40,469 nucleotides of DNA from Nitrososphaerales archaeon. GTDB taxonomy: Archaea; Thermoproteota; Nitrososphaeria; Nitrososphaerales; Gagatemarchaeaceae. A program made the position numbers and the translations under genes. Under the pieces are notes generated by a model, which saw nothing but the letters and a program-made list of their open reading frames with translations, did not search any database and had not been told where the DNA came from. Location: the NCBI GenBank assembly GCA_014874415.1, contig JACWAI010000004.1:1-40469 (forward strand), given 5' to 3'. This document shows, in pieces, positions 6,364 to 25,334 of this stretch; the stretch's first letter is position 1, and every line of letters starts with the position of its first letter.

Positions 6364-6366
6364 GAA

Positions 6367-9160: not shown

Positions 9161-9799
9161 CTAGTGCGGGGCGACGAGGCGCTGGTGGGTGAGGGACAGG
9201 CCCGTGACCGCTGAATACTCCCTGGCGAACATCGCCTTCACTTCATCGAACGGGATTGGCTTCCCCGTGATCTTCTGCATGGACGTCATGGTAGAGGGGT
9301 CCAGGCCGCAGGGGCGAATGAGCTCGAAGTAAGAAAGGTCAGTGTTGACGTTGAGGGCGAACCCGTGGTACGTCACCCATTCGGTGACGGCGACGCCGAT
9401 GGACGCGAGCTTCTTCCCCTGGACCCAGATGCCGGGGTGCCCCTCCATCCTTTGACTCTCTATGCCGTAGGCTCTTGCGGTCCTGATTATCGCTTCCTCC
9501 ATCCCCCTAACGTGGCGCCTCACGTCGTGGTCTGACAAGAGGACGATGGGGTACCCCACCAGCTGTCCGGGTCCGTGGTATGTGGCGTCCCCGCCTCGCT
9601 CGACCTGGAAGACGGGTATGCCTTGAGGCCTGAAGTTGGCAGGGGTGGTCTTGCGCCCCAGGGTTATGACGTGGTCGTGCTCTACCAGGACAAGGGTGTC
9701 CGGGATTTCCCCCCTGGCCCGCTTTTCCACGAGCTGCCGCTGGAGCTGCAGGGCCTGGCCGTACTCCATCCGGCCGAAATCGACTAGGTAGCCGTTCAT
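9161..9799 (-). CDS. lipB: lipoyl(octanoyl) transferase LipB
   Basis: This 212-residue protein shows the LipB signature RGGDATYHGPGQLVGYPI (residues 68-85), the catalytic lysine in GKKLASIG (K130) and the catalytic cysteine in IRPCGLD (C164). LipB moves octanoyl groups from acyl carrier protein to the lipoyl domain of E2 subunits, after which LipA inserts sulfur. Its ATG overlaps the stop of the E3 gene by four bases, so it is coupled to the 2-oxoacid dehydrogenase genes whose E2 it would modify. Length and motifs are complete. Confidence 0.95.
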   Translation of the reverse strand: MNGYLVDFGRMEYGQALQLQRQLVEKRARGEIPDTLVLVEHDHVITLGRKTTPANFRPQGIPVFQVERGGDATYHGPGQLVGYPIVLLSDHDVRRHVRGMEEAIIRTARAYGIESQRMEGHPGIWVQGKKLASIGVAVTEWVTYHGFALNVNTDLSYFELIRPCGLDPSTMTSMQKITGKPIPFDEVKAMFAREYSAVTGLSLTHQRLVAPH

Positions 9800-11229
9800 G
9801 TCCTGAGCTGATGGATGGGCCTGCCTGCGGCCGACTCCGAGGCTTCCATGATCGCCTCGGGGAGGGTCGGGTGAGGGTGTATGGTGAGAGCTATGTCGTC
9901 GACCGTCGCGCCCATCTCTATGGCCAGGGCCACCTCGCTGATCAGGTCTGAGGCCTCGGGGCCGACGATCTGGACCCCCAAGACCAGCCCGTCACCTTCG
10001 TTGGAGACCACCTTTACGAACCCCTCCGGCTCCCCTGTCGTCAGCGCCCTTCCAAGGGCTGCGAACTGGAACCTGCTACGCTTTACCTTGTAACCCGCCT
10101 CAGCCGCCTTCGCCTCGGTCAATCCCACGCTGGCGACCTCGGGGTCGCAAAACACCGCGTCGGGGATCACCTTCCAGTCCGCCGCCGAGGGCATCCCTGC
10201 GATGCATTCGGCCGCCACGATCCCTTCCTTCGAAGCCTTGTGGGCAAGGAGGGGCGGGCCCCTCACGTCCCCGATGGCGTAGACCCCCGGAACGTTGGTC
10301 TGCATCCTGTTGTCCGTGATGACGTATCCCCTGGCGTCAGTCTGGACACCCATCTTCTGGAGGTTCAGTTTCTCTGTCCTTGGCTTGCGGCCGACGCTCA
10401 CGAGTATCCTGTCGAACCCGAGCGTCACCTTGCCATCGGGCGTGTCTATCTCGGCTCTCGCTTCGGAGTCGGTCTTGTCGACATGGGCGACCTTCGACTT
10501 CAGAAAGACCTTGACGCCTTTGCTCTCCAGCTTCCTATGGACCACCCGGACGACCTCGGGGTCGCTCCCCGGAAGCAGCTGGTCCATGATCTCCACCACT
10601 GTGATGGCGCTCCCCAGCTTCTGGAACATGGACGCGAATTCGAGCCCGATGGCCCCACCTCCGACGATCAGCAGGCGGCTGGGTGGACCCTTCAGTTCGA
10701 GTCCCTCCTTCGAGCTGATTATCCTCTCGCCGTCGAACTCCAAGCCAGGGAGGCTCGACGTCCTCGTCCCGGTCGCTATGACCAGGTTCTTGCATGAAAT
10801 CTCCTCCTTTCCCTGGGAGGTGGTCACGGCGATCCTGTCCTTTGCGACGAGCTCCGCCTCACCTAAGATGACTGTCGCGTGGTATCCCCGAAGAAGGAGC
10901 TCTATCCCGCTCACCAGCCGCGATATGACCTCTGACTTCCACTTTTGCAGCTGGGCGAAGTCGACGGAGACGTTCGAGGCGCGAAACCCGTACTTCTCCG
11001 CCTCCTTCACCTTGTCGACTAGCTTTGCGACGCTGATCAGCGACTTCGAAGGGATGCACCCATAGTTCACGCACTCCCCCCCTAGCCTGTCAGCTTCGAC
11101 CACGACAGTCTTCAGCCCGAGCTGGGCCGCGCGGATGCCGCAGACGTAGCCCCCGGGGCCTCCGCCGATTATCGCGATGTCCGCTTCAATCAAGATATTG
11201 GGCTCGCGAAGCGTTATCGGCTTAAACAT
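9796..11229 (-). CDS. lpdA: dihydrolipoamide dehydrogenase (E3)
   Basis: This 477-residue flavoprotein has the FAD-binding GGGPGG near residues 22-27 and the redox disulfide GGECVNYGCIPSK (C53, C58). The second dinucleotide fold reads VGGGAIGLEFASMFQKLG, the ATG-like YAIGDVRG binds FAD, and the C-terminal catalytic dyad is in HPTLPE (H453, E458). It reoxidises dihydrolipoyl groups of E2 with NAD+. It lies 18 bases after E2 and overlaps lipB by four bases. All key residues are present. Confidence 0.96.
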   Translation of the reverse strand: MFKPITLREPNILIEADIAIIGGGPGGYVCGIRAAQLGLKTVVVEADRLGGECVNYGCIPSKSLISVAKLVDKVKEAEKYGFRASNVSVDFAQLQKWKSEVISRLVSGIELLLRGYHATVILGEAELVAKDRIAVTTSQGKEEISCKNLVIATGTRTSSLPGLEFDGERIISSKEGLELKGPPSRLLIVGGGAIGLEFASMFQKLGSAITVVEIMDQLLPGSDPEVVRVVHRKLESKGVKVFLKSKVAHVDKTDSEARAEIDTPDGKVTLGFDRILVSVGRKPRTEKLNLQKMGVQTDARGYVITDNRMQTNVPGVYAIGDVRGPPLLAHKASKEGIVAAECIAGMPSAADWKVIPDAVFCDPEVASVGLTEAKAAEAGYKVKRSRFQFAALGRALTTGEPEGFVKVVSNEGDGLVLGVQIVGPEASDLISEVALAIEMGATVDDIALTIHPHPTLPEAIMEASESAAGRPIHQLRT

Positions 11230-11247
11230 TGCTGATGGTTTGGGGGG

Positions 11248-12465
11248 CTAGAGGACTTCGGAGAGGAGCTTCTTTGTGTCCTGGATCGTCTCCACGACCC
11301 TGGAAGTGAACCTGGCGGCGTAGGCCCCGTCGAAGACGCGGTGGTCGAAGGAGAGCGAAAGGTAGGTGGTGTCCCTCACCTCTATCTTCCCGTCCCGAAC
11401 CACGGGGCGCTTGGCTATCTTGTGGAGCCCAAGTATCGCGACTTCGGGGACGTTGATTATCGGCGTCGCGAACAAGCCGCCTATCGCCCCCACGTTCGTT
11501 ATAGTGAACGTGGACCCGTGCACCTCGTCGAGGGTCAGCTGGGCGCTCCTCGCCTTCTGAGAAAGCTTCTCTATCTCCCCGGCGATCTCGAAAATGTCCT
11601 TCCTGTCTACGTCCTTCACTACGGGGACCACCAGCCCCTGGTCGGTGTCCGTGGCGATTCCCATGTTGTAATATCTCTTGAGAATGATGTTGCCTGCCTG
11701 CTCGTCGAGCGTCGAGTTGACGTAGGGGAACTCCTTGAGCGCGGGCACGAGCGCCTTTATGATGAACGGAAGGTAGGTGAGGCGGACGCCCCTCTTCTCC
11801 GCGCTCCCTTTGAACGCCTCACGCAGAAGGACGAGCTCTGTCATGTCGGCCTCGTCCACGTGGGTCACCTGGGCCGTCGTCCGGAGAGATTTCGCCATCC
11901 TTTCGGCTATCGTCCGCCTCAGCCCCCTCAGTGGGACGACCTCTTCCTTCGGGGCCCCTCTCGAGGGTTGAGTCTGGACAGCCTGGGCGGCGACGGCAGA
12001 CGTGCCCGAGCCCGATGCCGATCGTTTCACGTCTTCGTCAGTGACCCTCCCCTGCGGTCCGGTACCGCGTATCTTGCCCATGTCGACGCCGAGCTCTCTG
12101 GCGAGCCTGCGCGTCGCGGGAGTGGCTAGGACCCCTGCGGAAGGTGCAGGCGACTGCACTTGAACGACCTGGGCGGAAGCTGTCACTGGTTGTGGTGAAG
12201 TGGGAGTGGAAACTGGAGCCGGAGGTCCTGAGCCTCCCTCGTCTATCACCATGATCGTCTGCCCGACCTTGGCCACGTCCCCCTCTTTCACGAGGATCTT
12301 GGCGACCTTGCCTGTCCTCGGGGACGGGATCTGGACGTTGACCTTGTCCGTCATCACCTCGACGATGGGCTGGTCCTCTTTGATCTGATCCCCTTCCTTT
12401 GTCATCAGCTTCAGAATCTCCCCTTCAGTAATCCCCTCCCCCAGGTCTGGAAGTTTGAACTCCAT
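11248..12465 (-). CDS. dihydrolipoamide acyltransferase (E2) of a 2-oxoacid dehydrogenase complex
   Basis: This protein of about 405 residues has one lipoyl domain, with the lipoylated lysine in VMTDKVNV (K43 counted from the TTG at 12471). A proline- and alanine-rich linker (80-115), the E3/E1-binding domain (ATPATRRLARELGVD, about 117-150) and the catalytic acyltransferase domain follow, with SFDHRVFDG (H377, D381). The acyl group is not readable from sequence. The ATG at 12465 is preferred; a TTG lies two codons earlier. A TATA-like GTTTTTAACC (about 12493-12502) stands about 30 bases upstream, so E2-E3-lipB may have an internal promoter in addition to read-through from E1, which ends 45 bases upstream. 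Confidence 0.94.
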   Translation of the reverse strand: MEFKLPDLGEGITEGEILKLMTKEGDQIKEDQPIVEVMTDKVNVQIPSPRTGKVAKILVKEGDVAKVGQTIMVIDEGGSGPPAPVSTPTSPQPVTASAQVVQVQSPAPSAGVLATPATRRLARELGVDMGKIRGTGPQGRVTDEDVKRSASGSGTSAVAAQAVQTQPSRGAPKEEVVPLRGLRRTIAERMAKSLRTTAQVTHVDEADMTELVLLREAFKGSAEKRGVRLTYLPFIIKALVPALKEFPYVNSTLDEQAGNIILKRYYNMGIATDTDQGLVVPVVKDVDRKDIFEIAGEIEKLSQKARSAQLTLDEVHGSTFTITNVGAIGGLFATPIINVPEVAILGLHKIAKRPVVRDGKIEVRDTTYLSLSFDHRVFDGAYAARFTSRVVETIQDTKKLLSEVL

Positions 12466-12515
12466 GTACAATCTGGGCGATTGGATGGCAGGTTAAAAAC
12501 TCTGTAGACGCGCTG

Positions 12516-14660
12516 TCAGTAGCTGACCAGGTCCAGGGCGGCCTTCGTCACTCTCTCTTTGTTCGGGATGTAATTGTCTTCGAGCCTTGCCAGGGGGATG
12601 GGTATGTCATAGCCCGTGACCCTTTTGATGGGCGCCTTCAGGTAGTCGAGGGCCCTCTCGGCTACAGTAGCCGCCACCTCCGCGCCTACCCCGACGTTCC
12701 TGGGCGCCTCGTGGACTACGACGAGCCTACCAGTCTTCTGCACCGAGGCGAGAACGGCGGAGAAATCGATCGGAGAGACGGTCCTGAGGTCGACGACTTC
12801 GGCGGCGACCGACTTTTCCCCCAGGGCATCGGCTGCCTGCAGGGTGGGCACCATCATGGCTCCGTAGGACACCAGAGTCACATCAGTACCCTCCCTGACG
12901 ACCTTCGCCTTGCCGATGGGGATCCGATAATCCTCCTCCGGAACGTCCATCTTCGGGGAGTCGTAGATCTTCTTCGGCTCCATGAAAATGATCGGGTCTG
13001 GAGTCATGAGGGCCGACGCGAGGAGCCCCTTGGCGTCATAGGGGGTGGACGGGATCACAACCTTCAGGCCAGGGGTGTGGGCGAAGTACGCCTCGGGAGA
13101 TTCAGAGTGCAGCTCGGGGGGCCTTATGCCCGCCCCATACGGAAAGCGGATGACGCCCCTCGGTGCAAAACGGCCCCTGGACCTATTCCTCATGCGTGCG
13201 ATGTGGCTGAAGATCTGGTCGAAGGCGGGGAGGGAGAAATTGTCGAACTGGAACTCCGCCACCGGGACCATCCCGCCGATGGACAGCCCGACGAAAATCC
13301 CGCCGATGCTGAGCTCTGCAAGCGGGGTATCGAAGACCCTGTCCCCGAACTCATCCGCGAGCCCTCGGGTGACCTGAAAGACCCCTCCGTTCTTGGCCAC
13401 GTCCTCCCCGAAGATGACGACTTTTTCGTCCCGCCGCATCCCCTCCCTGAGGGCCATGTTGACAGCGTTCCTGATGTTCACTCCAGGCTTGCCTCCTGAG
13501 ACGGTCGGCTCAGGCGCGTCGGGGGCTGGGGTCCCTTCCACCCCAAAGTTCTCCGCGCGCTCCACAACAAGATTCGGCGTGGGCGATGAGAATGTGTAGT
13601 CGAAAATCGACGTGGGCGGCGGAGCAGGCGTTGCGCGGTAGGCGGCTATGGCGTCGGTCATCCTGGCCTGGGCCGCTTCGGTTACGGCTTCCTTCGACCT
13701 GTCGTCAAGTAGACCACGGTGCCGGAGATACTTTTCGAACCGGGTGATGGGGTTCCTCTTTTCCCACTCTGCGACCTCCTCGGGGGCCTTGAGCTTGTTG
13801 GACACGAGCTCGGCAGTTGTGTGCGGACCCATCCTGTAGGTCGAATACTCGATGAGCGTAGGACCGCCGCCCCTTCTCGCCTTGTCCACGGCGTATTTCG
13901 TAGCCTCGTAGGAGGCGATGATGTCGTTGCCATCGACGAAGATCCCCTCGAACCCATAGGCCACGGCCTTCTGGGCGATCGTCTTGGATGCGGTCTGGGC
14001 GTTCCTCTTCACCGACAGCGCCCACTGGTTGTTCTCGACGCCGAAGACGACCGGAAGATCATAGACGCCTGAGAAGTTCAGAGCTTCGTGGAAGTCGGCC
14101 TTGGAGGTGCCCCCGTCGCCGGTGGCGACGAATGTGACAGATTTCTCGCCCTGCATGCGCTTGGCCATGGCGAGCCCCGCGGCATGGGGGAGCTGGGTGG
14201 CGACGGGCACCGCCAGTGGGAGCATGTTCAGGCCATCGGGCATCTGCATCCCCCTCTCGTCCCCTCCCCAGTAGAGGAGGAGCTTGGGCGCAGGGAGGCC
14301 GAAGGCGAGCATGCCGGCGGAGTCCCTGTACATCGGGACGTACCAGTCCCCCTTCTCCAGGGCGTTCACTGGTCCCACCTGGCATGCCTCCTGGCCCTTC
14401 CCCGGGGCGTAGGTCCCTATCTCCCTAAGGGTCGAGAGGTTGGTCGCCTTGTCATCGAAGAGCCTGCCGAAGACGAGCTGCTCGTACAATCTCCTGAGAG
14501 TTTCAGGTGAAAGGTTGGGGTCCTTCCCTCTGAGAGTCCCGTCCGGGGCAAGGCGCTGATAGAGGAAATCCTCGGCCTTTGTGAACTTGAAATCGTTCTC
14601 GCTGAAGATGCGGGGGACCGGGTCGGACCCCGAGGCCTTCAGAAAGTCTGCCTCTGTCAA
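12516..14660 (-). CDS. 2-oxoacid dehydrogenase E1, alpha and beta subunits fused
   Basis: This 714-residue protein joins two chains that are usually separate. Residues 1-365 are E1 alpha: thiamine diphosphate motif GDGG...NN (G181 to N211) and the loop TYRMGPHTTAE (about 274-284), which holds the phosphorylation-site region of related enzymes. A linker rich in P, E and G (about 365-393) leads to E1 beta, recognised by EKVVIFGEDVAKNGGVFQVT and FDTPLAE. The enzyme decarboxylates a 2-oxoacid and acylates the E2 lipoyl group. YRMGPHTTAE fits pyruvate or branched-chain enzymes, and the substrate cannot be fixed here. The TTG start overlaps the lipA stop by four bases. Confidence 0.93.
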   Translation of the reverse strand: MTEADFLKASGSDPVPRIFSENDFKFTKAEDFLYQRLAPDGTLRGKDPNLSPETLRRLYEQLVFGRLFDDKATNLSTLREIGTYAPGKGQEACQVGPVNALEKGDWYVPMYRDSAGMLAFGLPAPKLLLYWGGDERGMQMPDGLNMLPLAVPVATQLPHAAGLAMAKRMQGEKSVTFVATGDGGTSKADFHEALNFSGVYDLPVVFGVENNQWALSVKRNAQTASKTIAQKAVAYGFEGIFVDGNDIIASYEATKYAVDKARRGGGPTLIEYSTYRMGPHTTAELVSNKLKAPEEVAEWEKRNPITRFEKYLRHRGLLDDRSKEAVTEAAQARMTDAIAAYRATPAPPPTSIFDYTFSSPTPNLVVERAENFGVEGTPAPDAPEPTVSGGKPGVNIRNAVNMALREGMRRDEKVVIFGEDVAKNGGVFQVTRGLADEFGDRVFDTPLAELSIGGIFVGLSIGGMVPVAEFQFDNFSLPAFDQIFSHIARMRNRSRGRFAPRGVIRFPYGAGIRPPELHSESPEAYFAHTPGLKVVIPSTPYDAKGLLASALMTPDPIIFMEPKKIYDSPKMDVPEEDYRIPIGKAKVVREGTDVTLVSYGAMMVPTLQAADALGEKSVAAEVVDLRTVSPIDFSAVLASVQKTGRLVVVHEAPRNVGVGAEVAATVAERALDYLKAPIKRVTGYDIPIPLARLEDNYIPNKERVTKAALDLVSY

Positions 14661-15583
14661 ACGTCGGTTTCGGCGTTCGCGGCCATATAAGATTGGTGCC
14701 GCCCTGTGTCGTTTCCAATGGCTGTCCTGATGAAGAACTCGCCTGCCCTGTAGCTGCTCCTCACCAACGGGCCGGATGCGACGTACCTGAAGCCCAGGTC
14801 CTCTCCGATGGACCTGTAGCGCTCGAACTGGCTGGGATTGACGTATTCGACGACCTTCAGGTGCCTCGGCGAGGGGCGGAGGTACTGGCCCACCGTGAGG
14901 AAATCCACGCCGGCCTGTCTCAGGTGGACCATCGCTTGGGTTACCTCTTCTTCGGATTCGCCGAGTCCGACCATTATCGAAGACTTCGTGTAGATGCGGT
15001 CGCTGAGCTTTTTCACGTTCCTCAACACAGACAGGGACTGCCAGTAGTGGGCCCTCGGGTCTCTGACCTTGTGCGTCAGGGACATCGTCGTCTCGATGTT
15101 GTGTGCTATGACATCGGGTCTCGCGTCAACGACCAGCTTCAGGTCGGCCAGGTCCCCCTGGAAATCGGGGATGAGTACCTCTACGAGCATGCCCGGGTTC
15201 TTCTCCTTGACCAGGCTGATCGTCCTGGCGAAGTGCGAAGCGCCTCCGTCCGGGAGGTCGTCCCTGTCCACGGACGTCAGGACCACGTAGGTGAGCCCCA
15301 TCTGGGAAAGCGCGAATGCCACGTTCTCTGGTTCGAACTGGTCTAGCACCCCCAGGGGCTTCCCTGGAGTCACCATGCAGAACCTGCAGGCCCTCGAACA
15401 GACGTCTCCCATCAGCATGAGGGTCGCCGTTCCCCCTCCCCAGCATTCGTGGACGTTGGGGCAGTGAGCTTCTTCGCAGACAGTGTGGAGGTTGAGGGTC
15501 CCGAACAGCCCCTTCAGTTCCTCGTAGCTCTGGCCCTTTGGCGGTGTTACCGTCAGCCACTGGGGCTTCGGCTCAGCCAGCAT
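14657..15583 (-). CDS. lipA: lipoyl synthase LipA
   Basis: This 308-residue radical SAM enzyme has both iron-sulfur sites of LipA: the auxiliary cluster CEEAHCPNVHEC (C36, C41, C47) and the SAM cluster CSRACRFC (C62, C66, C69), plus the C-terminal VRSSYRAGE motif. It inserts two sulfurs into octanoyl-E2. It follows the HTH regulator gene by one base and overlaps the E1 start by four bases, so cofactor synthesis and the enzyme that needs it form one transcription unit. The motifs are complete. Confidence 0.97.
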   Translation of the reverse strand: MLAEPKPQWLTVTPPKGQSYEELKGLFGTLNLHTVCEEAHCPNVHECWGGGTATLMLMGDVCSRACRFCMVTPGKPLGVLDQFEPENVAFALSQMGLTYVVLTSVDRDDLPDGGASHFARTISLVKEKNPGMLVEVLIPDFQGDLADLKLVVDARPDVIAHNIETTMSLTHKVRDPRAHYWQSLSVLRNVKKLSDRIYTKSSIMVGLGESEEEVTQAMVHLRQAGVDFLTVGQYLRPSPRHLKVVEYVNPSQFERYRSIGEDLGFRYVASGPLVRSSYRAGEFFIRTAIGNDTGRHQSYMAANAETDV

Positions 15584-15584
15584 T

Positions 15585-16016
15585 TCAGCTGCCGACTACT
15601 TTCAGCCTGTCAAAATCCTTTCCGGTGAAGGTCCCTTCACAGGCGTAGCAGCCCTCGGTCGGGAACCCTGGTTCCAGGTCTCCGTGAAGGGTGCACATCA
15701 GCTTGTTGAAGCGGATGTAGTCGAGTACTTCCGTCATTGACCTCAGAGCCTCCCTGCTGTCTGGCTCATCTGCCGAGAGGTCCCTTGCAATCTTGTCTGC
15801 CGCCTTTACAACGGTCCTGTCCGCTTCGAGGTTGACCATCATGCCGCGTGTCTTGCGCGCGTAGTTGCTTACTGTGGCCTGGGTCACTCCAAGGCGCTTG
15901 GCCACCTGCTGCTGGGTCAGGTGGAAGTCCTCCTTCAGCCTCCTGGCTATCATCGCACGCAGAGCCGGTAAGGCAGAGTTCGCGACTATCTCGTACGGGC
16001 TGATAAGGCGGGACAA
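15585..16016 (-). CDS. HTH transcriptional regulator with C-terminal cysteine motif
   Basis: This 143-residue protein has a Cro/XRE-like helix-turn-helix at about residues 30-55 (LTQQQVAKRLGVTQATVSNY). The C-terminal part holds CTLH and CYAC, a possible C-x2-H...C-x2-C metal site. It resembles small archaeal predicted regulators of the COG2522 type. It is the first gene of the lipA-E1-E2-E3-lipB run, one base before lipA, which suggests it controls that operon. The start used is TTG 16016. Its TATA-like box (about 16046-16053) and a palindrome (16026-16039) lie just upstream, consistent with autoregulation. The ligand is unknown; a lipoyl-, thiamine- or redox-linked signal would fit the context. 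Confidence 0.8.
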   Translation of the reverse strand: MSRLISPYEIVANSALPALRAMIARRLKEDFHLTQQQVAKRLGVTQATVSNYARKTRGMMVNLEADRTVVKAADKIARDLSADEPDSREALRSMTEVLDYIRFNKLMCTLHGDLEPGFPTEGCYACEGTFTGKDFDRLKVVGS

Positions 16017-16197: not shown

Positions 16198-19065
16198 ATG
16201 TCTAACCAGAACGTGTTCCAGCTGCTTTCGCCCCCTCTCGTCGCTGCCCTCAAAGAGCGGGGTTTCGACACACCCACAGACCCCCAGGAGAAGCTGGTCC
16301 CGATCGTAAGAGAAGGCAAAAACGCTCTACTCATGGCCCCGACGGGGACAGGCAAGACCGAGGCGGCCCTCCTCCCGATACTCGACGCCATGGTCAGGGA
16401 GGGGGAGTCCAGGGAGAAGGGGACGAAGCTCCTCTACATCACACCACTGAGGGCGCTGAACAGGGACATGCTCGACAGGATGCAGTGGTGGTGCAAGCGC
16501 TTCGACATCAGGCTCGGGGTGAGGCACGGGGACAGTTCGCAGGCGGAGAGGACAAACCTCAGCTTCGCGCCCCCTGACATACTGATAACGACTCCGGAGA
16601 CCCTGCAGATCCTGCTCGTCGGCAGGAGGATAAGGCAGAACCTAGCCAAGCTCCGCTGGGTCGTGGTTGACGAGGTCCACGAGCTTTCCGAAGACAAGAG
16701 GGGGAGCCAGCTCAGCGTGGGCCTCGAGAGGCTCAGGGACGTGGCGGAGAAGGAGTTCCAGATAGTCGGGCTGTCGGCGACAGTCGGGTCCCCTGAGAGG
16801 GTCGCCCAATTCCTCGTGGGGAGCGGGAGGCAGTGCGAGGTCGTGAGGGTCCCTGTGGAGAAGAGCCTCTCGCTCAAGGTCGTTGCTCCGCGCGCCACGG
16901 GGGACGACAGGGTCCTGGCCGAGTCCATCTATTCCTACCCCGAAGTCGCGGCCCGCCTGAGGACCATCAGGGAGCTCGTCGAGAAATACAAGTCTGTGCT
17001 CATATTTACCAACACACGGTCGGAGGCTGAAGCCCTCTCCAGCAGGTTTCGCGTATGGGACCCCGAATTTCCCATAGGGATACACCACAGCTCCCTTTCC
17101 AAGGCCACCAGGGAGGCGGTGGAGAGGAGCCTGAAGGAAGGGAAGCTCCTCGGCGTCATCTGCACCAGCAGCCTAGAGCTCGGGATCGACATTGGGTTCT
17201 TGGAATACGTGGTCCAGTACAACTCCCCCAGGCAGGTCACCAGGCTCATACAGAGGGTGGGACGGAGCGGCCACAAGGTGGGTGAGGTGTCAAACGGCCT
17301 GGTGATAACGCAGGACTCCGACGACATACTCGAAGCAGCCGTCCTCTGCAGGAAGTCGGTGATGGGGGAGTTGGAGCCGCTGGAACCGGTCTTCAACCCA
17401 TACGATGTGGCAATCCACCAGGTAGCCGGCCTCCTGATCGAGCAGACGAACTGGAACTTCGACGACTTGCTTAGCCTGTTCAGGAGGAGCTACGCCTATG
17501 CGGACTTCGAGGGGGAGAAGCTGAGGAAGGTCCTCACTTACATGAGAGAAAGGTACCCGAGGCTGGCGTACTACAGCGAGTCGGACGGGAAGGTGTTCAG
17601 GGCCAGGGACGTCAAGCCGCTCTTCCAGTATTACTTCGACAACCTCTCCATGATTCCGGACGAGAAACAGTATCTCGTGATCGAAGGGGAGAACTTCGTC
17701 GGGACGCTGGACGAGGCGTTCGTTTCAGAATACGGTGAGGTAGGGGTGAAGTTCGTCGAAGCTGGGCGCTGCTGGAAGATAGAGCAGATCTACGGCAACA
17801 AGGTCTACGTGAGGTCAGAGGAGGACCCGACGGGCGCTGTCCCCAACTGGGTGGGGGACGAGATACCGGTGCCCCGGGAGGTGGCGGCCGAGGTCGGCGC
17901 CATACGTAGGAAGTACGCCGAGGAGCTTGAGAAGGGTGGAGCGGAGAAGTACCTCGAGGAACTCTGCAGGACCTATCCCGTGCCAAAGGAGGCGATGCTG
18001 GACGCCCTGAAGGAGGTCGAGGAGCAGCACGCGGCCAGGCTGCCCATCCCTTCAGAGAGGGTCGTGACCATAGAGAGGTGGGACAGGTACCTCGTAATCC
18101 AGGCCGCCTTCGGCCACAGGGTGAACAGGCTCCTGGCGAGGGTGATCGGTCACCTGATTTCGGAGAAGATCGGGCAGTCGGTGGCCGTTCACCAGGACCC
18201 GTACAGGATAGTGATCGAGGCCGACGTTTCGCCGTCCTCGGTCATGTCGATAATAGAGGAGCTGCACAAGCTGGACCTCCGGACGGCGACTGAGAGGGCG
18301 GTGGAGAGAAGCGGGATATTCAAGCGCCGCCTCATCCACGCGGGGAAGAAGTGCGGCGCCATCGCCAAGGACGCCGACTACGCTAGCGTTTCAATCTCTG
18401 GGATAATCGAAGCCCTGCGTGACACCCCGGTTTACGAGGAGGCAATGAGCATGATATTCCACGACGATTTCGACCTTTCAGGCGCGGCCGAGGTGGTGGA
18501 GAAGATGAACGCGGGGGCCATAGAGGTCAAGCTGGTCGAATACGAGGGGCTGACACCAATCGCGAGGATAGGCGTGGAGGAGATAAGCAGGAGAGGGGAG
18601 ATCGTCTCCCCCGAAAGGCTCAGGGCACTCCTCAAGCAGTCCACCAGGGCGAGGATCAACGACACGTTCCTGGTCGCGGTCTGCACCAACTGCTGGAACT
18701 TCCTGGAGCTGAAGAAGGTCGGGGACCTCGAGGGGCTCGACAGGTGTCCGGTGTGCGAAAAACAGGCGCTCGGCCTTTCGACCGACTCCTACGAGAACGT
18801 GTTCTCGCTCGCCATGAAGGCGAGGAGCAGGGCAGACCTGCGAGGGAGCAAGCTGAAGGCAGTCGAGGCGCTGAGGAAGTCGGCAGAGCTTCGGAAGGAG
18901 TATGGCCATGCCGCTGATATGCTCCTCGCAGGCAGGGGCGTGAGGCTTGCAGAGGCCGCGGCACTCGCAGCCAAGATGAGGAAGGAAGGGACGGACGTGG
19001 TCGAGCTGATTATTGATGGCGAGCGGGAGGCGCTTCGCAGGCGCTACTTCTTCGCCGCTTCCTGA
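16198..19065 (+). CDS. Lhr-type superfamily 2 helicase (first of two)
   Basis: This 955-residue helicase has motif I APTGTGKTEA (47-56), motif II DEVH (from 158), motif III SAT (about 192) and motif VI QRVGRSGH (about 352). The winged-helix and Lhr-core region follows. The C-terminus has a zinc-ribbon-like pair, CTNC (about 829) and CPVC (about 849). Lhr proteins are 3'-5' DNA translocases linked to repair and recombination. A GAGGT at 16183-16187 sits ten bases before the ATG and could be a ribosome binding site. The 3' end overlaps the convergent KITE-like gene by 22 bases. The second Lhr gene begins 3.4 kb downstream. Confidence 0.94.
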   Translation: MSNQNVFQLLSPPLVAALKERGFDTPTDPQEKLVPIVREGKNALLMAPTGTGKTEAALLPILDAMVREGESREKGTKLLYITPLRALNRDMLDRMQWWCKRFDIRLGVRHGDSSQAERTNLSFAPPDILITTPETLQILLVGRRIRQNLAKLRWVVVDEVHELSEDKRGSQLSVGLERLRDVAEKEFQIVGLSATVGSPERVAQFLVGSGRQCEVVRVPVEKSLSLKVVAPRATGDDRVLAESIYSYPEVAARLRTIRELVEKYKSVLIFTNTRSEAEALSSRFRVWDPEFPIGIHHSSLSKATREAVERSLKEGKLLGVICTSSLELGIDIGFLEYVVQYNSPRQVTRLIQRVGRSGHKVGEVSNGLVITQDSDDILEAAVLCRKSVMGELEPLEPVFNPYDVAIHQVAGLLIEQTNWNFDDLLSLFRRSYAYADFEGEKLRKVLTYMRERYPRLAYYSESDGKVFRARDVKPLFQYYFDNLSMIPDEKQYLVIEGENFVGTLDEAFVSEYGEVGVKFVEAGRCWKIEQIYGNKVYVRSEEDPTGAVPNWVGDEIPVPREVAAEVGAIRRKYAEELEKGGAEKYLEELCRTYPVPKEAMLDALKEVEEQHAARLPIPSERVVTIERWDRYLVIQAAFGHRVNRLLARVIGHLISEKIGQSVAVHQDPYRIVIEADVSPSSVMSIIEELHKLDLRTATERAVERSGIFKRRLIHAGKKCGAIAKDADYASVSISGIIEALRDTPVYEEAMSMIFHDDFDLSGAAEVVEKMNAGAIEVKLVEYEGLTPIARIGVEEISRRGEIVSPERLRALLKQSTRARINDTFLVAVCTNCWNFLELKKVGDLEGLDRCPVCEKQALGLSTDSYENVFSLAMKARSRADLRGSKLKAVEALRKSAELRKEYGHAADMLLAGRGVRLAEAAALAAKMRKEGTDVVELIIDGEREALRRRYFFAAS

Positions 19066-19604
19066 GCCCGTGAGAGGATCAGGGTCATCAGGGTCTTCTC
19101 GTCGACCTCAGCGTGGGTCCTCCACCCGATGTGCAACATTCCCCTGTCGTCCTGCTCGAGATATCCCCTCTTGACGTACCTGTCGAGGGAGTAGTCTATG
19201 CGCCATTTGGGGAACTTCTCCCTTAGGAACTGCTCGACTTCCCGCCTCGCCACCCTGCTCTGTTTCGAGTTGATGAAGGCTATCGTCGCGGCCAGGACGG
19301 CGAGGTCGTCTATCCTGATACCGGAGGTCTCGGCTTCGCTGATGGTAGGCGGCTCCCTGAACCTGAGTAGGAACCTGGAGGAGTCGTCTGTCCCGTCGGC
19401 GCCCTTCACCTCGTATACCTCGAGGCCCATGGGGGAGACGTCCTCCGAGAGGACTTCGATTATCTTGCGGTAGTCTCTCCCTAGGTGCCGCTTCATCTCC
19501 CACCCCTTTACCCCTGGGTTGCGGCCGCGCTGCAGGACCAGTACCTGGAACGCCCTCCTCACCTTGCGCTCGAGCAGCGCTCTGTCTGAGGATTCGGTTT
19601 CCAT
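19044..19604 (-). CDS. KITE-like tandem winged-helix protein, resembles Nse3/MAGE (SMC partner)
   Basis: This 186-residue protein appears to have two winged-helix units (about 8-85 and 98-165), the KITE architecture. By eye it resembles MAGE/Nse3 more than ScpB. The first unit has HLGRDYRKIIEVLSED and GLEVYEVKG. After a break near ETSGIRIDDLAVL comes a helix-rich unit and the ending GYLE...LHIGWRTHAEVDEKTL, close to the MAGE ending YLE...WGPRAHAETSK. Its ATG shares one base with the kleisin-like stop (TGATG), so it is coupled to the ATPase operon. KITE proteins bind the kleisin bridge and often DNA. The assignment rests on unaided pattern matching and needs a profile search. ScpB is the main alternative. 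Confidence 0.6.
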   Translation of the reverse strand: METESSDRALLERKVRRAFQVLVLQRGRNPGVKGWEMKRHLGRDYRKIIEVLSEDVSPMGLEVYEVKGADGTDDSSRFLLRFREPPTISEAETSGIRIDDLAVLAATIAFINSKQSRVARREVEQFLREKFPKWRIDYSLDRYVKRGYLEQDDRGMLHIGWRTHAEVDEKTLMTLILSRAQEAAKK

Positions 19605-20362
19605 CAGCCCTCACCCGTTATCGAGATCGCCACCGACTTCGGCATCCCCTTCACCTTCTCGGCCAGAGCCGTGATCCAAATCTTCCCAGTGAGGGGCTCG
19701 GTCTTCAGCAGGGCCCTCCCCTCGCTAATCAGGAATGCGAGGAGATAGGCACGTCTCACCTTGGACTCGAAGCTCTCGTCTCCGATGAACTGGCGGTAGT
19801 CCACCCACTCCCCGTTCGACTCATGCAGTAGCTCTTCGTGCAACTCGGCGAGGCTGCTTTCGAACTGCTCTCTCGTGAACACGCCGAGGTTGATCAGGTC
19901 GGAGTATTCGACTACGCCGGGCCCAATCCCGTAGTTCCCGAACTTGTCTTTGAAGCGCTCAGAAATAGGGGTGAGGTCGCGCCAGTAGATGAACGCCCTC
20001 TCCAGCCCACGGGGGGAAAGCTGGTCCACTTGGGCCACCGGATGCCAACTCTTGATGAACGCCTCCGAGAGCGCCTCCTTGGGGAGGAGCTTCAGTTTGA
20101 GCTGGATAAGGAGCGGGTCGATGTAGAGGGCGCTGGCCCTGCCCTTGAGATACTGATCTTGAAGTCGGATTATCCGTGATAACTCCAAGATGGCTTCTGA
20201 GTCGACGAGAAGTTCGTCCAGAAGCTTCAGCTCGGGGAGGCGCTCCTTCAAGATGAGTAGTTTCTCTGTAATATCGACATCGAAGGGGTTGGCCGAACTC
20301 GATTCCACGTCGCGGCATAGCTCGATGACTCTCAGGTAGTCGTCGAGTCTGGTCTGCTCCAA
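19604..20362 (-). CDS. kleisin-like subunit (ScpA/Nse4-type)
   Basis: This 252-residue protein resembles kleisins in layout. The N-terminal part NPFDVDITEKLLILKERLPE (25-44) and the following helix with ELSRIIRLQDQYLKGRASAL (60-79) look like the ScpA region that binds the SMC neck. A poorly conserved middle follows. A C-terminal segment (SKVRRAYLLAFLISEGRALL and LTGKIWI, about 200-230) looks like the winged helix that binds the SMC head. The TTG start follows the SMC stop with no gap and the stop overlaps the next start, so the three proteins are made together. In SMC complexes the kleisin bridges the two heads and recruits KITE proteins. Similarity is weak and the call leans on operon context. 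Confidence 0.6.
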   Translation of the reverse strand: MEQTRLDDYLRVIELCRDVESSSANPFDVDITEKLLILKERLPELKLLDELLVDSEAILELSRIIRLQDQYLKGRASALYIDPLLIQLKLKLLPKEALSEAFIKSWHPVAQVDQLSPRGLERAFIYWRDLTPISERFKDKFGNYGIGPGVVEYSDLINLGVFTREQFESSLAELHEELLHESNGEWVDYRQFIGDESFESKVRRAYLLAFLISEGRALLKTEPLTGKIWITALAEKVKGMPKSVAISITGEG

Positions 20363-22399
20363 TCACTTCAGCTCCTTGACTTCGGATGACCCGTGGACGG
20401 CCTGGACAGTAATCACGTGAGCGCTCCTGTCAAAGACTGTGAGAATCGACGGCGTGATAACGATGTACTGGGAAGCCTCCCTCTGCTTTATCTGGGAGAG
20501 TATCATCTTGAACATGGCCTCCCTATTCTTGGGATCCATGTGGATGTCGAACTCGTCCATGGCTCTAAGAGGGGAGACAATCCTCGCCTGAAGCGAGAGT
20601 ATGAACGCCATGAGGGCTACCGACCTCTCCCCTCCGCTTTGAGTAAATGGGTCGAGCGTGGTGGGAGCCCCGCCTCGGAAGCCGACATACAAGTCTAGCC
20701 CTGCGTCCTCAATGACGTCAGCCTGCTCGAACTTTACGAAGCCACTGGCGTCTGCTGCGGCCAACACTGCCTGATATGCGGGGTCGACCGACTCAATAAG
20801 GTCCTCCATGGCTTTCTTCCATACATCCTTCCGCGCATCCAGCTCGGTTAGCATCGACTTCTTGTTCTCCTGCAGCTTTGCCAGTTTCACTTTCAGCTCT
20901 TCGATATTCCCCGAGTAGTCGTTGTAGATTTTCTCAGCGTCGTCGGGGACGTCCTGCATCTTCTGGATATGGGCGGATACCAGCTTGAGTTCCTCTGAGA
21001 CCTCGTAGGGCTGCCTGAGGGTCTCGATCTTTGGCCCTGCTCTTTCAAGCTCGGGGGCCATCTTTTCGAGCTCCGACCTGTATTCCCTAGCGCCCCGTTC
21101 TAGCTCCCTGAGGTCCGATTCCGTGACGCGGATCCTGTAGGATAGGACCTCGGCCTTGACCTTGAAGGAGACGTAGCTGTCTGTAGTCCGTTTGATGAGC
21201 TCCTCGGTCTTTGTTATGTCAGGCTGGAGTGCCGAAACCTCCCTGTCGAGCTCTCCCTTGCGGCGTCGTGCGTCCTCTTCCGCCGCAGCTCCCTTTCCTT
21301 CGATGTAGGTGGCGAGTTCCTTCAGTCTCTTCACGCTCTTGTCGGAACTTCTCGCAAGCAGCTCGTCGATAGTGATTGAGAGCCCCGCCAAGTCCTCCTT
21401 TACCGAATGATAGGCGTTCGTGGCAGACTCGTCCTTCGCCTTCTCCGACTCCGTCCTGACAAGCGCGTAGTACAGCTTCCTCAGCTCGACCTGCTTGTCC
21501 AGAAGGGTCTGGTGTGTCTGCTCGGCGTCGGCGGAGACCTCTGCCTGCTGCGACTTCAGATCCTCAAGAGCCCTAGTCTTCGACAGTATCTTCTCCTCGG
21601 CGGACTGTAATGACTTCGTCAGCCTGGCTTCCGAGCTCCAGAGCAGCTCCTTTGTGAGCAGGTCCCGGTGCTCGATGAGCTTCCGCTTCTCCTGATATCG
21701 GTCGTAGATCTGCTTCCAGTATTCCAGCGCCTGGTTGGCGTTGTCGATGAGCTGTAGTAGCGAGCTCTCCTCCCCGATGAGCCCGCCGAGCTCCTGCTCC
21801 GCCAGAAGTATCCTCTGCCTGTACTCGGAGAACCCCACCGCCTCCTCCACCATGCGCAGCCGCTCCTGAGGGCTGACAGCCCCTAGCTCCTCTATCATCC
21901 CCTGGTGCATGATGATCAGGAGGTTGTCAGGGTTGATCCCGAACTCCCTGAGGAGGCGCACGACCTCGCTCTTGTCTATCTCCTTGTAGTCGGCCTCGAA
22001 CCAATAGGAGCCGTCGCGCCTGAGGTACCTGCTTAGCATGAATGTGTCCGACTTCGAATACGGTATGGGGCGCTTCCCTGATTTCGCAGAATTGTCAAAG
22101 ATGAGTGAGACCCTTGCTATGTCCTTGCCTCGGCGTATCAGGTCTGAAAGCTTGCGCGACCTCTCCGTGTAAGCCTGGCCGAAGGCGACCGAGATGGCGA
22201 GCAGGACGGAAGACTTCCCCGCGCCGTTAGGCCCGATGATGAGGTTGAGACCCTCGCGGAGGGGTATCCTGGCGTACTCGTAGCTCATGAAGTTCTCCAG
22301 GATTATCTCCTTTACAGTGGTTGAATGAGACGGCCTCTCCTGAGAGACCTCTTCGGTGCTCCTCGACAAGCTTTCTGACCGCAGGGAGGCGGGGCGCAT
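20363..22399 (-). CDS. SMC-like ATPase with Smc6-type head motifs and short coiled coil
   Basis: This 678-residue ATPase has Walker A GPNGAGKSS (56-64). Following it, RSRKLSDLIRRGKDIARVSL resembles the Smc5/6 segment after Walker A. Long charged coiled-coil stretches (about 230-345 and 380-520) follow, then the signature SGGERSVALM (about 587) and Walker B/D-loop PLRAMDEFDIHMDP (about 609-622). PxRxxDEFDxxMD is the Smc6 version of this motif. The coils are far shorter than in canonical SMC (about 1,150 residues). The middle (345-380) is too short for a normal hinge and has no Rad50 CxxC hook. The first 27 residues precede the conserved core, so the true start may be later. A TATA-like GGCTTAAAGT lies at 22413-22422, divergent from the second Lhr gene. 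Confidence 0.85.
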   Translation of the reverse strand: MRPASLRSESLSRSTEEVSQERPSHSTTVKEIILENFMSYEYARIPLREGLNLIIGPNGAGKSSVLLAISVAFGQAYTERSRKLSDLIRRGKDIARVSLIFDNSAKSGKRPIPYSKSDTFMLSRYLRRDGSYWFEADYKEIDKSEVVRLLREFGINPDNLLIIMHQGMIEELGAVSPQERLRMVEEAVGFSEYRQRILLAEQELGGLIGEESSLLQLIDNANQALEYWKQIYDRYQEKRKLIEHRDLLTKELLWSSEARLTKSLQSAEEKILSKTRALEDLKSQQAEVSADAEQTHQTLLDKQVELRKLYYALVRTESEKAKDESATNAYHSVKEDLAGLSITIDELLARSSDKSVKRLKELATYIEGKGAAAEEDARRRKGELDREVSALQPDITKTEELIKRTTDSYVSFKVKAEVLSYRIRVTESDLRELERGAREYRSELEKMAPELERAGPKIETLRQPYEVSEELKLVSAHIQKMQDVPDDAEKIYNDYSGNIEELKVKLAKLQENKKSMLTELDARKDVWKKAMEDLIESVDPAYQAVLAAADASGFVKFEQADVIEDAGLDLYVGFRGGAPTTLDPFTQSGGERSVALMAFILSLQARIVSPLRAMDEFDIHMDPKNREAMFKMILSQIKQREASQYIVITPSILTVFDRSAHVITVQAVHGSSEVKELK

Positions 22400-22490: not shown

Positions 22491-25334
22491 TTGCCCACCG
22501 AGAGCTCCTTCGAGTCCCTGGTTCCCTCTGTGAGAAGTCTCTTGCTGGAGACGGGGATCGTTGAGCCTACCCCTCCTCAGGTGCAGGCATGGCCCCTGAT
22601 ATCGAAGGGGGAGGATGTGCTTGTCATCGCGCCGACAGGCTCCGGCAAGACCGAGGCCGCCCTCCTGCCCCTGCTGGGAAGGCTTGTGTCTGAGGGGCAC
22701 GGCGAAGGCATCTCGCTTCTCTACATCACCCCCATGCGCGCACTGAACCGGGACATGCTGAAGCGGCTCCAGGTCTGGTGCGCCAAGCTGGGGCTGACAG
22801 TCGACATCAGGCACGGCGATACGCCCCAGTCGCAGAGGACCAGGCAGTCGACCCACCCTCCCGACGTGCTTGTTACGACTCCGGAGACCCTGCAAGCCGT
22901 CCTGCCCGGACGGAGGATGAGGGAGAACCTCTCCCATCTGAAGGCGGTGGTCGTCGACGAGCTCCACAACCTGGTGGAGAGCAAGAGAGGGGTGCAGCTC
23001 TGCGTGGGGCTCCAGAGGCTCAGGAAGGTATCCCCCCGCTTCCAGCTCGTCGCGCTCTCAGCCACCGTGGGGACGCCGGAGGTGGCGGCCAGGTTCCTCT
23101 TCGGGGAGGGTCCCCGACGCATCGTCAGGGCCGAAGCTCCGAAGGAGTTCACCTACGCCATCGAATACCCTGTACCCGACCCGACTACTCAGTCTGCGGC
23201 GAAGGCGACGTATGCGGCTCCCGACCTGGCCGCCCGGCTCTCGAGGATCAACTCTTTGATCGATGGCCACACGTCGACGCTGATCTTCGTCAACAGCAGG
23301 ACTGTGGCGGAGATGCTCGGGGAGAAGCTTGCCAGGCTGAGGAAAGACGTCGGCGTGCACCACGGTTCGCTCCCGAGGGAGGAGAGGGAAAGGGTCGAGC
23401 AGGCGTTCAAGTCGGGGGCACTGAAGGCACTTGTATGCACAAGCACGTTGGAGCTTGGCATCGACGTCGGCTCCGTGGACCTTGTGGTGCAGTACATGTC
23501 TCCCCGCCAGGTGACGAGTCTTGTCCAGAGGGTGGGGAGGAGCGGCCACAGGATGGGGAAGACGTCGAAGGGGGTCCTGGTGACCGTCTCGGCGGACGAC
23601 ATACTCGAATCGTCGGTCAGCATACTCTTGGCAGGGCAGGGTAGGATCGAGCCGACGAGGCCGTTCTCTAACTCCCTGGACGTGCTGGCGCACCAGATCG
23701 CAGGATACCTGATGGACTTCGAGACGATGGACGCGGATAGGGTGTTAGCCGAGGTCCGGAAGGCCGAGCCGTTCAGGGGGCTGACAGAAGACGCGTTCAT
23801 GCGCACAGCGGGCTACCTGTCTGAGCTCCGGAAGATCAGGTTCGACGGCAAGACCCTTTCAAGGACCAGGCTGACGAGAGACTACTATTACGAGAACCTG
23901 TCCATGATCCCGGATGAGACGAGGTACCTGGTCGTCGACGTCTCGACGAACCAGACGGTCGGGATCCTGGGAGAGGAGTTCGTCCTGTTGAGCGTGAAAG
24001 TGGGGGTTCACTTCGTCTGCAAGGGGAAGATCTGGCAGGTCGAACAGATCGCTCAGGACAGGAAGATCTACGTGACCCCGGTGGAGGACCCGCTCGCTGC
24101 TATACCAGGCTGGGACGGTGAGATGCTCCCCATCCCCTATGAGCTGGCCATGCAGACGGGGAAGCTGAGGCGGGAGATCTCCGACGGCCTGGATCTAGGG
24201 GAGGGCGCCCTGGCCGAGGTTTCGAAGAAGATCCCCGGGGACGCGGCGGCTCGAGCGCTTGTCATAGACGAGATAGCCGAGCACAAGAAGATGGGCGCGG
24301 CCGTGCCTTCGGACAAGCTGATACTCTTCGAGGGGTTCGGCAAGTACCTAGTGGTGCACCTTTGCTTCGGTGAGTCTGTGAACAGGACGTTCGCCTACGT
24401 GTTCGAGGAGATGCTTTCGCGGAGGGGGCTGGTCAGGATCTGGTGGCTCGATGGTTACAGGCTCCTGATGGAGCTGACCGCCGACACTGAGGAGCTGGAC
24501 CTGAAGGCGATCGCACGGGAGCTCACGAGCCTGACCCCGGAGGATCTGGAGAGGACATACGCGGTGGCTGCGCAGAGGAACTTCCCCTTCCCTGCGCGGG
24601 TCAAACAGGTGGCGGAAAGGTTCGGTGCGCTGAAACGAGGGAAGCTCATCGCGCATCCGAACCTCTGCTCCCTCCCGACTCGATTCGAGAAGACGCCGAT
24701 ATTCGAGGAGGCGCTCCAGGAGACGGGGAGGGACCTGATAGACATGGAGCGGGGGAAGCAGATACTCGTCGCCGTGGCCAAGGGGGACATCGCAGTAGAG
24801 ACGTTCCTGGCCGGAGACAGGCCCACCCCCATAGCCTACGGGCTCCTCTACAGGTACCTGGAGGTGCCGGAGGCAGTGGCCCCCGACTCCCTAGGCAAGT
24901 CTTCCTACCAGAGGATGAAAGCGAGCATCTTCGGGACGGAGGTCAGCCTGCTCTGCGTGAAGTGCGGCGAAGATCAGGGGGGGACCACCGTCGGGGACCT
25001 GGCCGAGGAGCCGAAGTGCGCCGCCTGCGGTTCAGGCCTGCTTGTGCCTTGCTACTGGGGGACGGCCAAGCTGGCGGACTTGGTGAAGAAACGGGAGGAA
25101 AGGGCTCCGCTCAACGAGGAAGAACGCTCGGAGCTTTCAAGGGCGAGGAGGGGCGCCGACCTGGTCCTCTCCTACGGAAAGAAGGCCGTCGTGGCCCAGT
25201 CCGTGTACGGGATCGGACCCCAGACCGCTTCGAGGATCCTGGCGGAGATGCATGACGATGAAGAGGCGTTCTACAGGGACCTTCTTGAGGCAAAAATCCG
25301 ATTCGTGACCACGCGGCAGTTCTGGGGGAACTGA
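22491..25334 (+). CDS. Lhr-type superfamily 2 helicase (second of two)
   Basis: This 947-residue helicase has motif I APTGSGKTEA (47-56), DELH (from 156), SAT and QRVGRSGH (about 346). Zinc-ribbon-like CVKCG (about 822) and CAACG (about 842) pairs follow, then a helix-hairpin-helix-like GIGPQTASRILAEM near the C-terminus. It shares layout with the first Lhr gene but is clearly diverged, so this is an old pair of paralogues and not a recent duplication. It starts from TTG, apparently leaderless. It is divergent from the SMC-like operon and is followed by an uncharacterised gene and a metallophosphoesterase, a partner often found beside lhr. Confidence 0.94.
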   Translation: MPTESSFESLVPSVRSLLLETGIVEPTPPQVQAWPLISKGEDVLVIAPTGSGKTEAALLPLLGRLVSEGHGEGISLLYITPMRALNRDMLKRLQVWCAKLGLTVDIRHGDTPQSQRTRQSTHPPDVLVTTPETLQAVLPGRRMRENLSHLKAVVVDELHNLVESKRGVQLCVGLQRLRKVSPRFQLVALSATVGTPEVAARFLFGEGPRRIVRAEAPKEFTYAIEYPVPDPTTQSAAKATYAAPDLAARLSRINSLIDGHTSTLIFVNSRTVAEMLGEKLARLRKDVGVHHGSLPREERERVEQAFKSGALKALVCTSTLELGIDVGSVDLVVQYMSPRQVTSLVQRVGRSGHRMGKTSKGVLVTVSADDILESSVSILLAGQGRIEPTRPFSNSLDVLAHQIAGYLMDFETMDADRVLAEVRKAEPFRGLTEDAFMRTAGYLSELRKIRFDGKTLSRTRLTRDYYYENLSMIPDETRYLVVDVSTNQTVGILGEEFVLLSVKVGVHFVCKGKIWQVEQIAQDRKIYVTPVEDPLAAIPGWDGEMLPIPYELAMQTGKLRREISDGLDLGEGALAEVSKKIPGDAAARALVIDEIAEHKKMGAAVPSDKLILFEGFGKYLVVHLCFGESVNRTFAYVFEEMLSRRGLVRIWWLDGYRLLMELTADTEELDLKAIARELTSLTPEDLERTYAVAAQRNFPFPARVKQVAERFGALKRGKLIAHPNLCSLPTRFEKTPIFEEALQETGRDLIDMERGKQILVAVAKGDIAVETFLAGDRPTPIAYGLLYRYLEVPEAVAPDSLGKSSYQRMKASIFGTEVSLLCVKCGEDQGGTTVGDLAEEPKCAACGSGLLVPCYWGTAKLADLVKKREERAPLNEEERSELSRARRGADLVLSYGKKAVVAQSVYGIGPQTASRILAEMHDDEEAFYRDLLEAKIRFVTTRQFWGN

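Follow-up and report, generated by a model that had tools for sequence, protein, structure and literature searches.

An archaeal three-gene SMC–kleisin–KITE operon with probable kinship to the eukaryotic Smc5/6 core

We have analysed a stretch of 40,469 nt (the window) from a Nitrososphaerales archaeon (assembly GCA_014874415.1, contig JACWAI010000004.1), which carries an operon of three genes for a short SMC-type ATPase without a hinge, a kleisin and a KITE protein (Table 1). Comparisons of sequences and predicted structures suggest that the operon quite probably encodes an archaeal SMC–kleisin–KITE complex sharing descent with the core of eukaryotic Smc5/6 (Smc5/6, Nse4 and Nse1/Nse3). An initial annotation of the window, made from the letters alone, had proposed an archaeal relative of the Smc5/6–Nse3–Nse4 core, and this proposal is largely supported by the family-level comparisons of ATPase head, kleisin and KITE given below. 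The case rests on families because the kleisin of the window itself falls below the Pfam cut-off and its KITE protein has no MAGE match. The source genome has 1.69 Mb in 114 contigs, with completeness of 91.6% and contamination of 3.6%.

The stop codon of the ATPase gene abuts the start of the kleisin gene, and the kleisin stop and the KITE start have one base in common; open reading frame (ORF) coordinates and junctions agree with the zero-gap or one-base overlaps described initially. The motifs quoted at that time, PLRAMDEFDIHMDP, LGRDYRKI, GLEVYEVKG and GWRTHAEVD, were all found in the operon translations. In the family alignments, with relatives from records titled Thaumarchaeota/Nitrososphaerota, Hecatellales, Bathyarchaeota, Methanomethylicia and Methanophagales, mean column identity is 51% for the ATPase (n=31), 49% for the kleisin (n=32) and 52% for the KITE protein (n=34); judging from these alignments, the protein sequences are conserved beyond chance.

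By sequence comparison, the ATPase head is closer to Smc5 and Smc6 than to Smc1–4, canonical SMC or Rad50. A phmmer search of the PDB with the window ATPase gave yeast Smc5 (2.9e-29) and yeast Smc6 (5.8e-24), then SMC heads (3.3e-18 and below) and Rad50 (1.4e-9). When a profile of the 31 ATPases was compared with 177,635 PDB sequences, the top ten matches were five Smc6 and five Smc5 entries (3.3e-57 to 1.5e-44), all from yeast and human and mostly construct variants; their bit scores run from 198 to 156, and Smc (147 bits, 8.3e-42) and Smc2 (142 bits, 1.6e-40) follow, with RecN chains absent from the listed matches. As a control, a canonical archaeal SMC retrieved no Smc5/6 among its 44 PDB matches at E<=1e-20. 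A tree of heads (28 sequences, 360 columns, model LG+F+R4) was built with 16 of the 31 aligned ATPases, one canonical SMC (cSMC_G016) being dropped for its truncated locus and two Rad50 rows being named from size and an Mre11-like neighbour, without a family search. It separates canonical SMC and Rad50 from the archaeal ATPases, Smc5 and Smc6 with support of 96.6/98; the archaeal ATPases form one clade (99.2/99) and Smc5 with Smc6 another (83.6/93). In the approximately unbiased (AU) test this topology has p 0.887, and a topology placing Smc5/6 with canonical SMC has p 0.033. A scan of viral contigs with the ATPase gave a best value of 6e-13 among the matches listed, mostly over the N-terminal head.

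The halves of the head lie at about residues 29–200 and 530–670 of the window ATPase, which matches Pfam SMC_N at 1.7e-35, and a coiled-coil-like middle region lies between them. Among 80 sequences surveyed for motifs (the window and 79 loci, the truncated L040 being left out), every one has an intact Walker A and signature motif, and the strict Walker B pattern occurs in 71, the remaining nine reading DEFD-I/V-HMD with another residue in front. An N-R pair after Walker B and a T-P pair at the end of the head are kept in 31/31 aligned ATPases. Yeast and human Smc6 share both and yeast Smc5 shares T-P; the canonical SMCs compared carry other residues at these positions. SMC_hinge is not among the 25 families listed, out of 124 Pfam families, for the 31 ATPase members, and no locus from L001 to L084 contains two ATPase-matching ORFs.

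RecN resembles the operon ATPase in its length of about 580–680 aa, the range of the whole archaeal family, and in its lack of a hinge. These likenesses would fit a RecN/Rad50-like repair ATPase beside which two winged-helix genes merely happen to lie, a reading to which we give very little credence: similarity of the head to Smc5/6 is far above that to Rad50, and the products of the neighbouring genes resemble a kleisin and a KITE, their co-occurrence with the ATPase being almost perfect. The operon ATPases share with Rad50 and with ASRP/coalescin/Sph the condition of an archaeal SMC-superfamily ATPase without an SMC hinge. Those proteins mostly carry a zinc hook (PMC9389158); unlike in ASRP and Rad50, the CxxC of the hook was found in the middle region of 0/80 operon ATPases. 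The Rad50/ASRP reading was rejected on this ground as well as on those just given.

At the level of the family, the kleisin is of the Nse4 type by both sequence profiles and predicted fold. It has an N-terminal helical part and a C-terminal winged helix. A profile of 32 kleisins, compared with the same PDB set, placed Nse4 in all of the first four positions (1.6e-4 to 6.6e-4), and its fifth match was the N-terminal domain of an archaeal ScpA (0.077), over the opposite end of the protein. Against 24,736 Pfam models, Nse4_C matched 23 of the 32 members (best 3.5e-7), while each of the other 21 matched families did so in one member; the ScpA model matched 0/32. For the window kleisin alone, Nse4_C gives E 0.093. 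We also searched 299 genomes sampled evenly across the phylum of the window, its own genome included. Nse4_C matched in 64 of them (E<=0.01; eight over the curated cut-off), as against one weak match from the 14 control genomes. All but one of the 64 matches (63) lie less than 2 kb from a KITE gene, and the remaining one falls in a 90-aa frame that contains a stop. The kleisin model (pLDDT 68.6, pTM 0.37) has as its fold matches Nse4 (7qcd_F, 1.0e-4; 7tve_G, 2.3e-3) and then the ScpA winged helix (1.1e-2).

The KITE protein is likewise nearest, as a family, to Nse3(MAGE) and Nse1, as far as profiles and the modelled fold can tell. In an AlphaFold2 model (pLDDT 79.9) two winged-helix units can be read from the helices and strands. 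Foldseek matched it best to 5hvq_D of a MAGE-G1/NSE-1 entry (3.9e-6), followed by 7dg2_C (2.0e-5; named as a MAGE domain protein in the PDB search) and 7dg2_A (2.6e-5), both of the Nse1–Nse3–Nse4 entry, JetABC 8dk1_F (3.1e-5) and ScpB (4.9e-4). From chain lengths, 5hvq_D would be MAGE-G1 and 7dg2_A Nse1. The fold claim is carried by these E-values, because the TM-scores (about 0.35) are low. Applied to the 299 genomes, the MAGE model gave 24 matches, of which 17, the best 11 included, lie inside the KITE gene; one match reaches the Pfam cut-off, and the 14 control genomes gave none. Of five KITE relatives that were scanned, four owed their selection to a MAGE match: these four match both MAGE (2e-5 to 5.3e-4) and SMC_Nse1 (4.1e-4 to 0.06), and the fifth (L072) matches neither. 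A profile headed by the four has Nse3 (7dg2_C) as its best PDB match (E 0.029), which covers the N-terminal two thirds. The occurrence of MAGE and SMC_Nse1 in the same proteins would fit a single KITE predating the split of Nse1 and Nse3, but the Nse1 model is unspecific. Other PDB sequence searches with the KITE protein yielded no match (single sequence) or one unrelated match (first profile), and phmmer with one MAGE-matching KITE gave nothing useful. As to a RING domain, the 186-aa translation has no cysteine at all.

The genes of the operon are inherited together. In the 299 genomes (ATPase profile at E<=1e-40, KITE profile at E<=0.001) the ATPase was found in 123 and the KITE in 122; both are present in 121, the ATPase only in 2, the KITE only in 1 and neither in 175 (Fisher 4.5e-81, shared ancestry uncorrected). 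The distance between the two genes, taken in 119 of the 121 genomes with both, is below 4 kb in 111 and 6–10 kb on the same contig in three, and in five the genes are on different contigs. Inheritance of ATPase and KITE is thus near-perfectly joint over many genera. Individual loci were taken from a search of genome contigs as the best 80 of 255 ATPase relatives. The nearest of these belong to metagenome-assembled genomes (MAGs) of Thaumarchaeota/Nitrososphaerota (86–89% identity) and more distant ones to records titled Hecatellales, Bathyarchaeota, Methanomethylicia, Methanophagales and Methanosarcinales. The kleisin stands at the same locus in 58/80 and the KITE in 57/80 (the window itself, L001, not counted). 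Two of the 22 loci without a kleisin (L030 and L040) are from Thaumarchaeota; the other 20, mostly titled Methanophagales, Methanosarcinales and Methanomicrobia, are probably of ANME-1 type. In ANME-1-type genomes the ATPase frequently lies apart from its partners, but the KITE is present in 17 of 18 such whole genomes searched, 17 of the 18 having no partners beside the ATPase and one (L065) having the complete operon. In loci centred on KITE or kleisin (L086–L101), the two adjoin in 16/16.

Rearranged gene order was seen in two genomes (G080 and G187), with an Nse4_C match ~2 kb from the KITE gene and the ATPase 6–7 kb from it. One short contig titled Candidatus Nitrosotalea (L061) has an ATPase that shares 41% identity with the query and scores among those of Methanophagales/Methanosarcinales; the contig is possibly misbinned. 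Two contigs of one MAG (YP3.bin16; L008 and L022) each carry an ATPase 88% identical to that of the window; the bin is possibly mixed.

Several results weigh against kinship with Smc5/6. In the phmmer search human Smc6 (4.5e-17) ranks under several canonical SMC heads, and the lowest-ranked Smc5 of the profile search scores little more (156 bits) than Smc (147 bits). The best NCBIfam match of the ATPase is the canonical SMC_prok_A (8e-46; 156 bits against a cut-off of 729 bits), and that scan showed no Smc5/6 model. The AU test does not reject a grouping of the archaeal ATPase with canonical SMC (p 0.155), and the head tree is without Smc1–4. The hinge model (PF06470) is over its cut-off in seven ORFs of 13 genomes, none of which is an operon ATPase, and a second SMC subunit, as in the pair of Smc5 and Smc6, was not found in the genome of the window, which has one such gene. 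Concerning the KITE, both the pTM of its model (0.45) and the TM-scores are low; the Pfam MAGE model matches 2/34 members of the first alignment and 17/122 KITE genes genome-wide, that of the window not among them; the KITE of the window matches neither MAGE nor Nse1 in Pfam; and the Nse1 model is unspecific genome-wide, since 5/21 of its matches, the best one not included, fall within the KITE gene. The description of the head as Smc5/6-like in the initial annotation thus holds for its grouping with Smc5/6, not with canonical SMC or Rad50, in the tree, and the AU test leaves the canonical grouping standing. The kleisin-like middle protein is borne out as Nse4-like by profile, Nse4_C and fold search. 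The third protein, described as an Nse3/MAGE-like KITE, is backed by the fold search, by the MAGE matches of 17 relatives and by the profile that has Nse3 as best PDB match, the KITE of the window itself having no MAGE match. Best profile matches to ScpA and ScpB, which would have told against the initial proposal, were not seen: neither model is among the families matched by kleisin or KITE members.

These points bear on a reading in which the ATPase shares descent with Smc5/6 and a generic archaeal kleisin and KITE were recruited independently, so that Nse4 and Nse1/Nse3 would not be their orthologs. The similarities of single partner proteins are weak, the N-terminus of the kleisin also resembles archaeal ScpA in the fifth profile match, and the KITEs of JetABC and ScpB match the fold too, with MAGE missing most KITE genes. 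Still, Nse4_C recurs in most of the kleisin family, against one member for each other matched Pfam family; MAGE matches some KITEs and ScpB 0/34; and Nse4 and Nse3/MAGE rank first in both sequence and fold searches. We therefore regard independent recruitment as unlikely.

An ordinary Smc–ScpA–ScpB complex would have the same logic of SMC, kleisin and KITE, and its candidacy is helped by the lack of a detectable ScpA gene in the genome of the window and by the SMC_prok_A match, itself far under the cut-off. The same genome, however, encodes a separate canonical SMC of 1209 aa with a hinge; ScpA and ScpB models match no kleisin or KITE member; and where ScpA was detected (12 of 32 genomes chosen as carriers of operon genes) it is a separate gene, whose coordinates in G166 and G001 place it near the gene for canonical SMC. 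With neither an ScpA/ScpB match nor a hinge in the operon ATPase, this identity was rejected as highly improbable. In three genomes (G004, G207 and G311) we found no canonical SMC by TIGR02169 or the hinge model; completeness is 95–96% for G004 and G207, and G311 is unrated. The Smc5/6-like complex may therefore be their sole SMC complex.

An SMC-type ATPase is also the basis of some defence systems, those of the Wadjet/MksBEF, Lamassu or MADS type. JetABC has the same make-up of SMC, kleisin and KITE and supplies the fourth KITE fold match (8dk1_F), and the ATPase matches the PADLOC models mad3 (5.2e-29), LmuB (7.1e-17) and JetC (3.2e-10). What these models recognise is the shared ABC head, for which SMC_N gives a stronger match, and kleisin and KITE have no PADLOC match at E<=1. 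Of 20 flanking proteins scanned, short of a full annotation, none was recognised as a nuclease subunit. Near-perfect co-inheritance across many genera also argues against a defence role, which we consider hardly credible and have rejected; for the Wadjet/MksBEF type in particular, no Jet/Mks kleisin or KITE was recognised, nor a nuclease among the flanking proteins scanned.

Set beside known systems, the operon is like the eukaryotic Smc5/6 core (Smc5, Smc6, Nse4, Nse1 and Nse3/MAGE) in having its closest heads there, together with an Nse4-like kleisin and a MAGE/Nse1-like KITE. It differs in having one SMC gene, for a short hinge-less protein, and one KITE gene without RING, and in holding three genes only (no search for Nse2, Nse5 and Nse6 was made elsewhere in the genome). 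It is, then, a hinge-less relative with one SMC gene and not an Smc5/6 complex proper. With bacterial Smc–ScpAB and archaeal Smc–ScpA it shares the architecture of SMC and kleisin (and KITE) and the ends of the kleisin, which are as in ScpA; unlike them, it lacks a canonical SMC of about 1200 aa with a hinge and has no partner matched by ScpA or ScpB models. It follows the SMC–kleisin–KITE logic of MukBEF and Wadjet JetABCD, but its kleisin and KITE match no PADLOC model.

Reportedly, Yoshinaga and Inagaki described an archaeal ‘SMC5/6-related’ SMC in 2021. A preprint of 2024 (van Hooff et al.), which we know through citing papers, is said to deal with where SMC complexes originated among prokaryotes and may report the same system. 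An archaeal ‘SMC5/6-related’ ATPase is in any case already published: in the phylogeny of Yoshinaga et al. (2022, PMC9389158), such SMCs group with Smc5 and Smc6 with a maximum-likelihood bootstrap percentage (MLBP) of 100% and a Bayesian posterior probability (BPP) of 0.99. The operon ATPase presumably belongs to the same clade, a placement made without sequence-by-sequence comparison. The main text of that paper does not use the word ‘kleisin’, and we saw no account there of partner genes or of a missing hinge. Nor did the open-licence PMC literature, as far as searched, yield an account of the kleisin and KITE partners or of the hinge-less build; that body does not extend to the 2024 preprint. 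In the published view, as given in PMC7055376, archaeal SMC complexes are generally without KITE subunits and the archaeal ScpAs tested bind no ScpB; that view concerned canonical Smc–ScpA. Unlike the complexes of that study, the operon carries a KITE, and it thereby qualifies the view.

By analogy with better-known complexes, the complex would most likely act in repair and chromosome organisation, using ATP to clamp DNA or to form loops in it. Composition, co-inheritance and head motifs come from the sequences; what follows on stoichiometry, binding, clamping and cellular role is modelled on general knowledge of Smc5/6, Smc–ScpAB and MukBEF. Two copies of the short SMC protein would pair head-to-head on ATP, and one kleisin would bridge them asymmetrically, with its N-terminal helices on one neck and its C-terminal winged helix on the other cap. 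KITEs, probably two, would bind the central part of the kleisin and so shut a clamp for DNA above the engaged heads, and ATP turnover could then lead to entrapment or translocation of DNA. As there is no hinge, either something else would join the arm tips or the ring would stay open at that end. In the cell the complex would probably serve genome maintenance (recombination or repair of replication forks, and compaction), perhaps together with the neighbouring Lhr helicase.

To our knowledge, the origin of Smc5/6, of its Nse4 kleisin and of the MAGE family is an open question. An archaeal relative as small as this, with a single SMC, kleisin and KITE, would allow ideas on that origin to be tested and would offer a minimal system for the mechanism of the DNA clamp. 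The hinge-less build raises the question whether SMC machines need a hinge. We tentatively suggest, with somewhat less than even confidence, that eukaryotes received the Smc5/6 core from archaea as a complete machine of three genes, in which the kleisin became Nse4, the KITE was duplicated into Nse1 and Nse3 (and thus gave all MAGE proteins) and the one SMC gave Smc5 and Smc6; the surviving archaeal branch would be a hinge-less homodimer, in some lineages the sole SMC complex. If this were true, that homodimer would show that a kleisin–KITE SMC machine can work without a hinge.

Table 1. Genes of the SMC–kleisin–KITE operon and of the helicases that flank it in the window
Feature	Position	Strand	Details
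Hinge-less Smc5/6-like ATPase gene	20363..22399	-	678 aa, ATG start
Nse4-like kleisin gene	19604..20362	-	252 aa, TTG start
KITE protein gene	19044..19604	-	186 aa, ATG start
LhrA, Lhr-type DEAD/H helicase	16198..19065	+	Pfam DEAD, Helicase_C, WH_Lhr, DEAD_assoc
LhrB, Lhr-family helicase upstream of operon	22491-25334	+	

Two Lhr-family helicases bracket the operon. LhrA is convergent with it, the end of its gene overlapping that of the KITE gene by 22 bases, and cross-matches between LhrA and LhrB are about 36–38% identical in close relatives. An LhrA ortholog lies in the flank of 39/80 loci, including 15/51 of the most distant ones (L034–L084), a count that leaves out rows matching solely as an LhrB cross-match and is made on flanks of differing length; it is on the opposite strand in 36 of the 39. 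LhrB was found mainly in close relatives and LhrA in distant ones too. Helicases partner with Smc5/6 in eukaryotes, and LhrA is a possible functional neighbour of the SMC operon by that analogy, to be taken as a lead and not as evidence.

Elsewhere in the window, a 2-oxoacid dehydrogenase cluster (9796-15583, minus strand) encodes an E3-like protein, an E2 and a 714-aa E1 whose two halves share a single frame, along with a radical-SAM lipoyl-synthase-like protein; a small helix-turn-helix gene is at 15585-16016. Ribosomal proteins L4 and L2 are encoded at 5303-7110 (plus strand), with a putative RNA methyltransferase gene nearby at 3480-4304.

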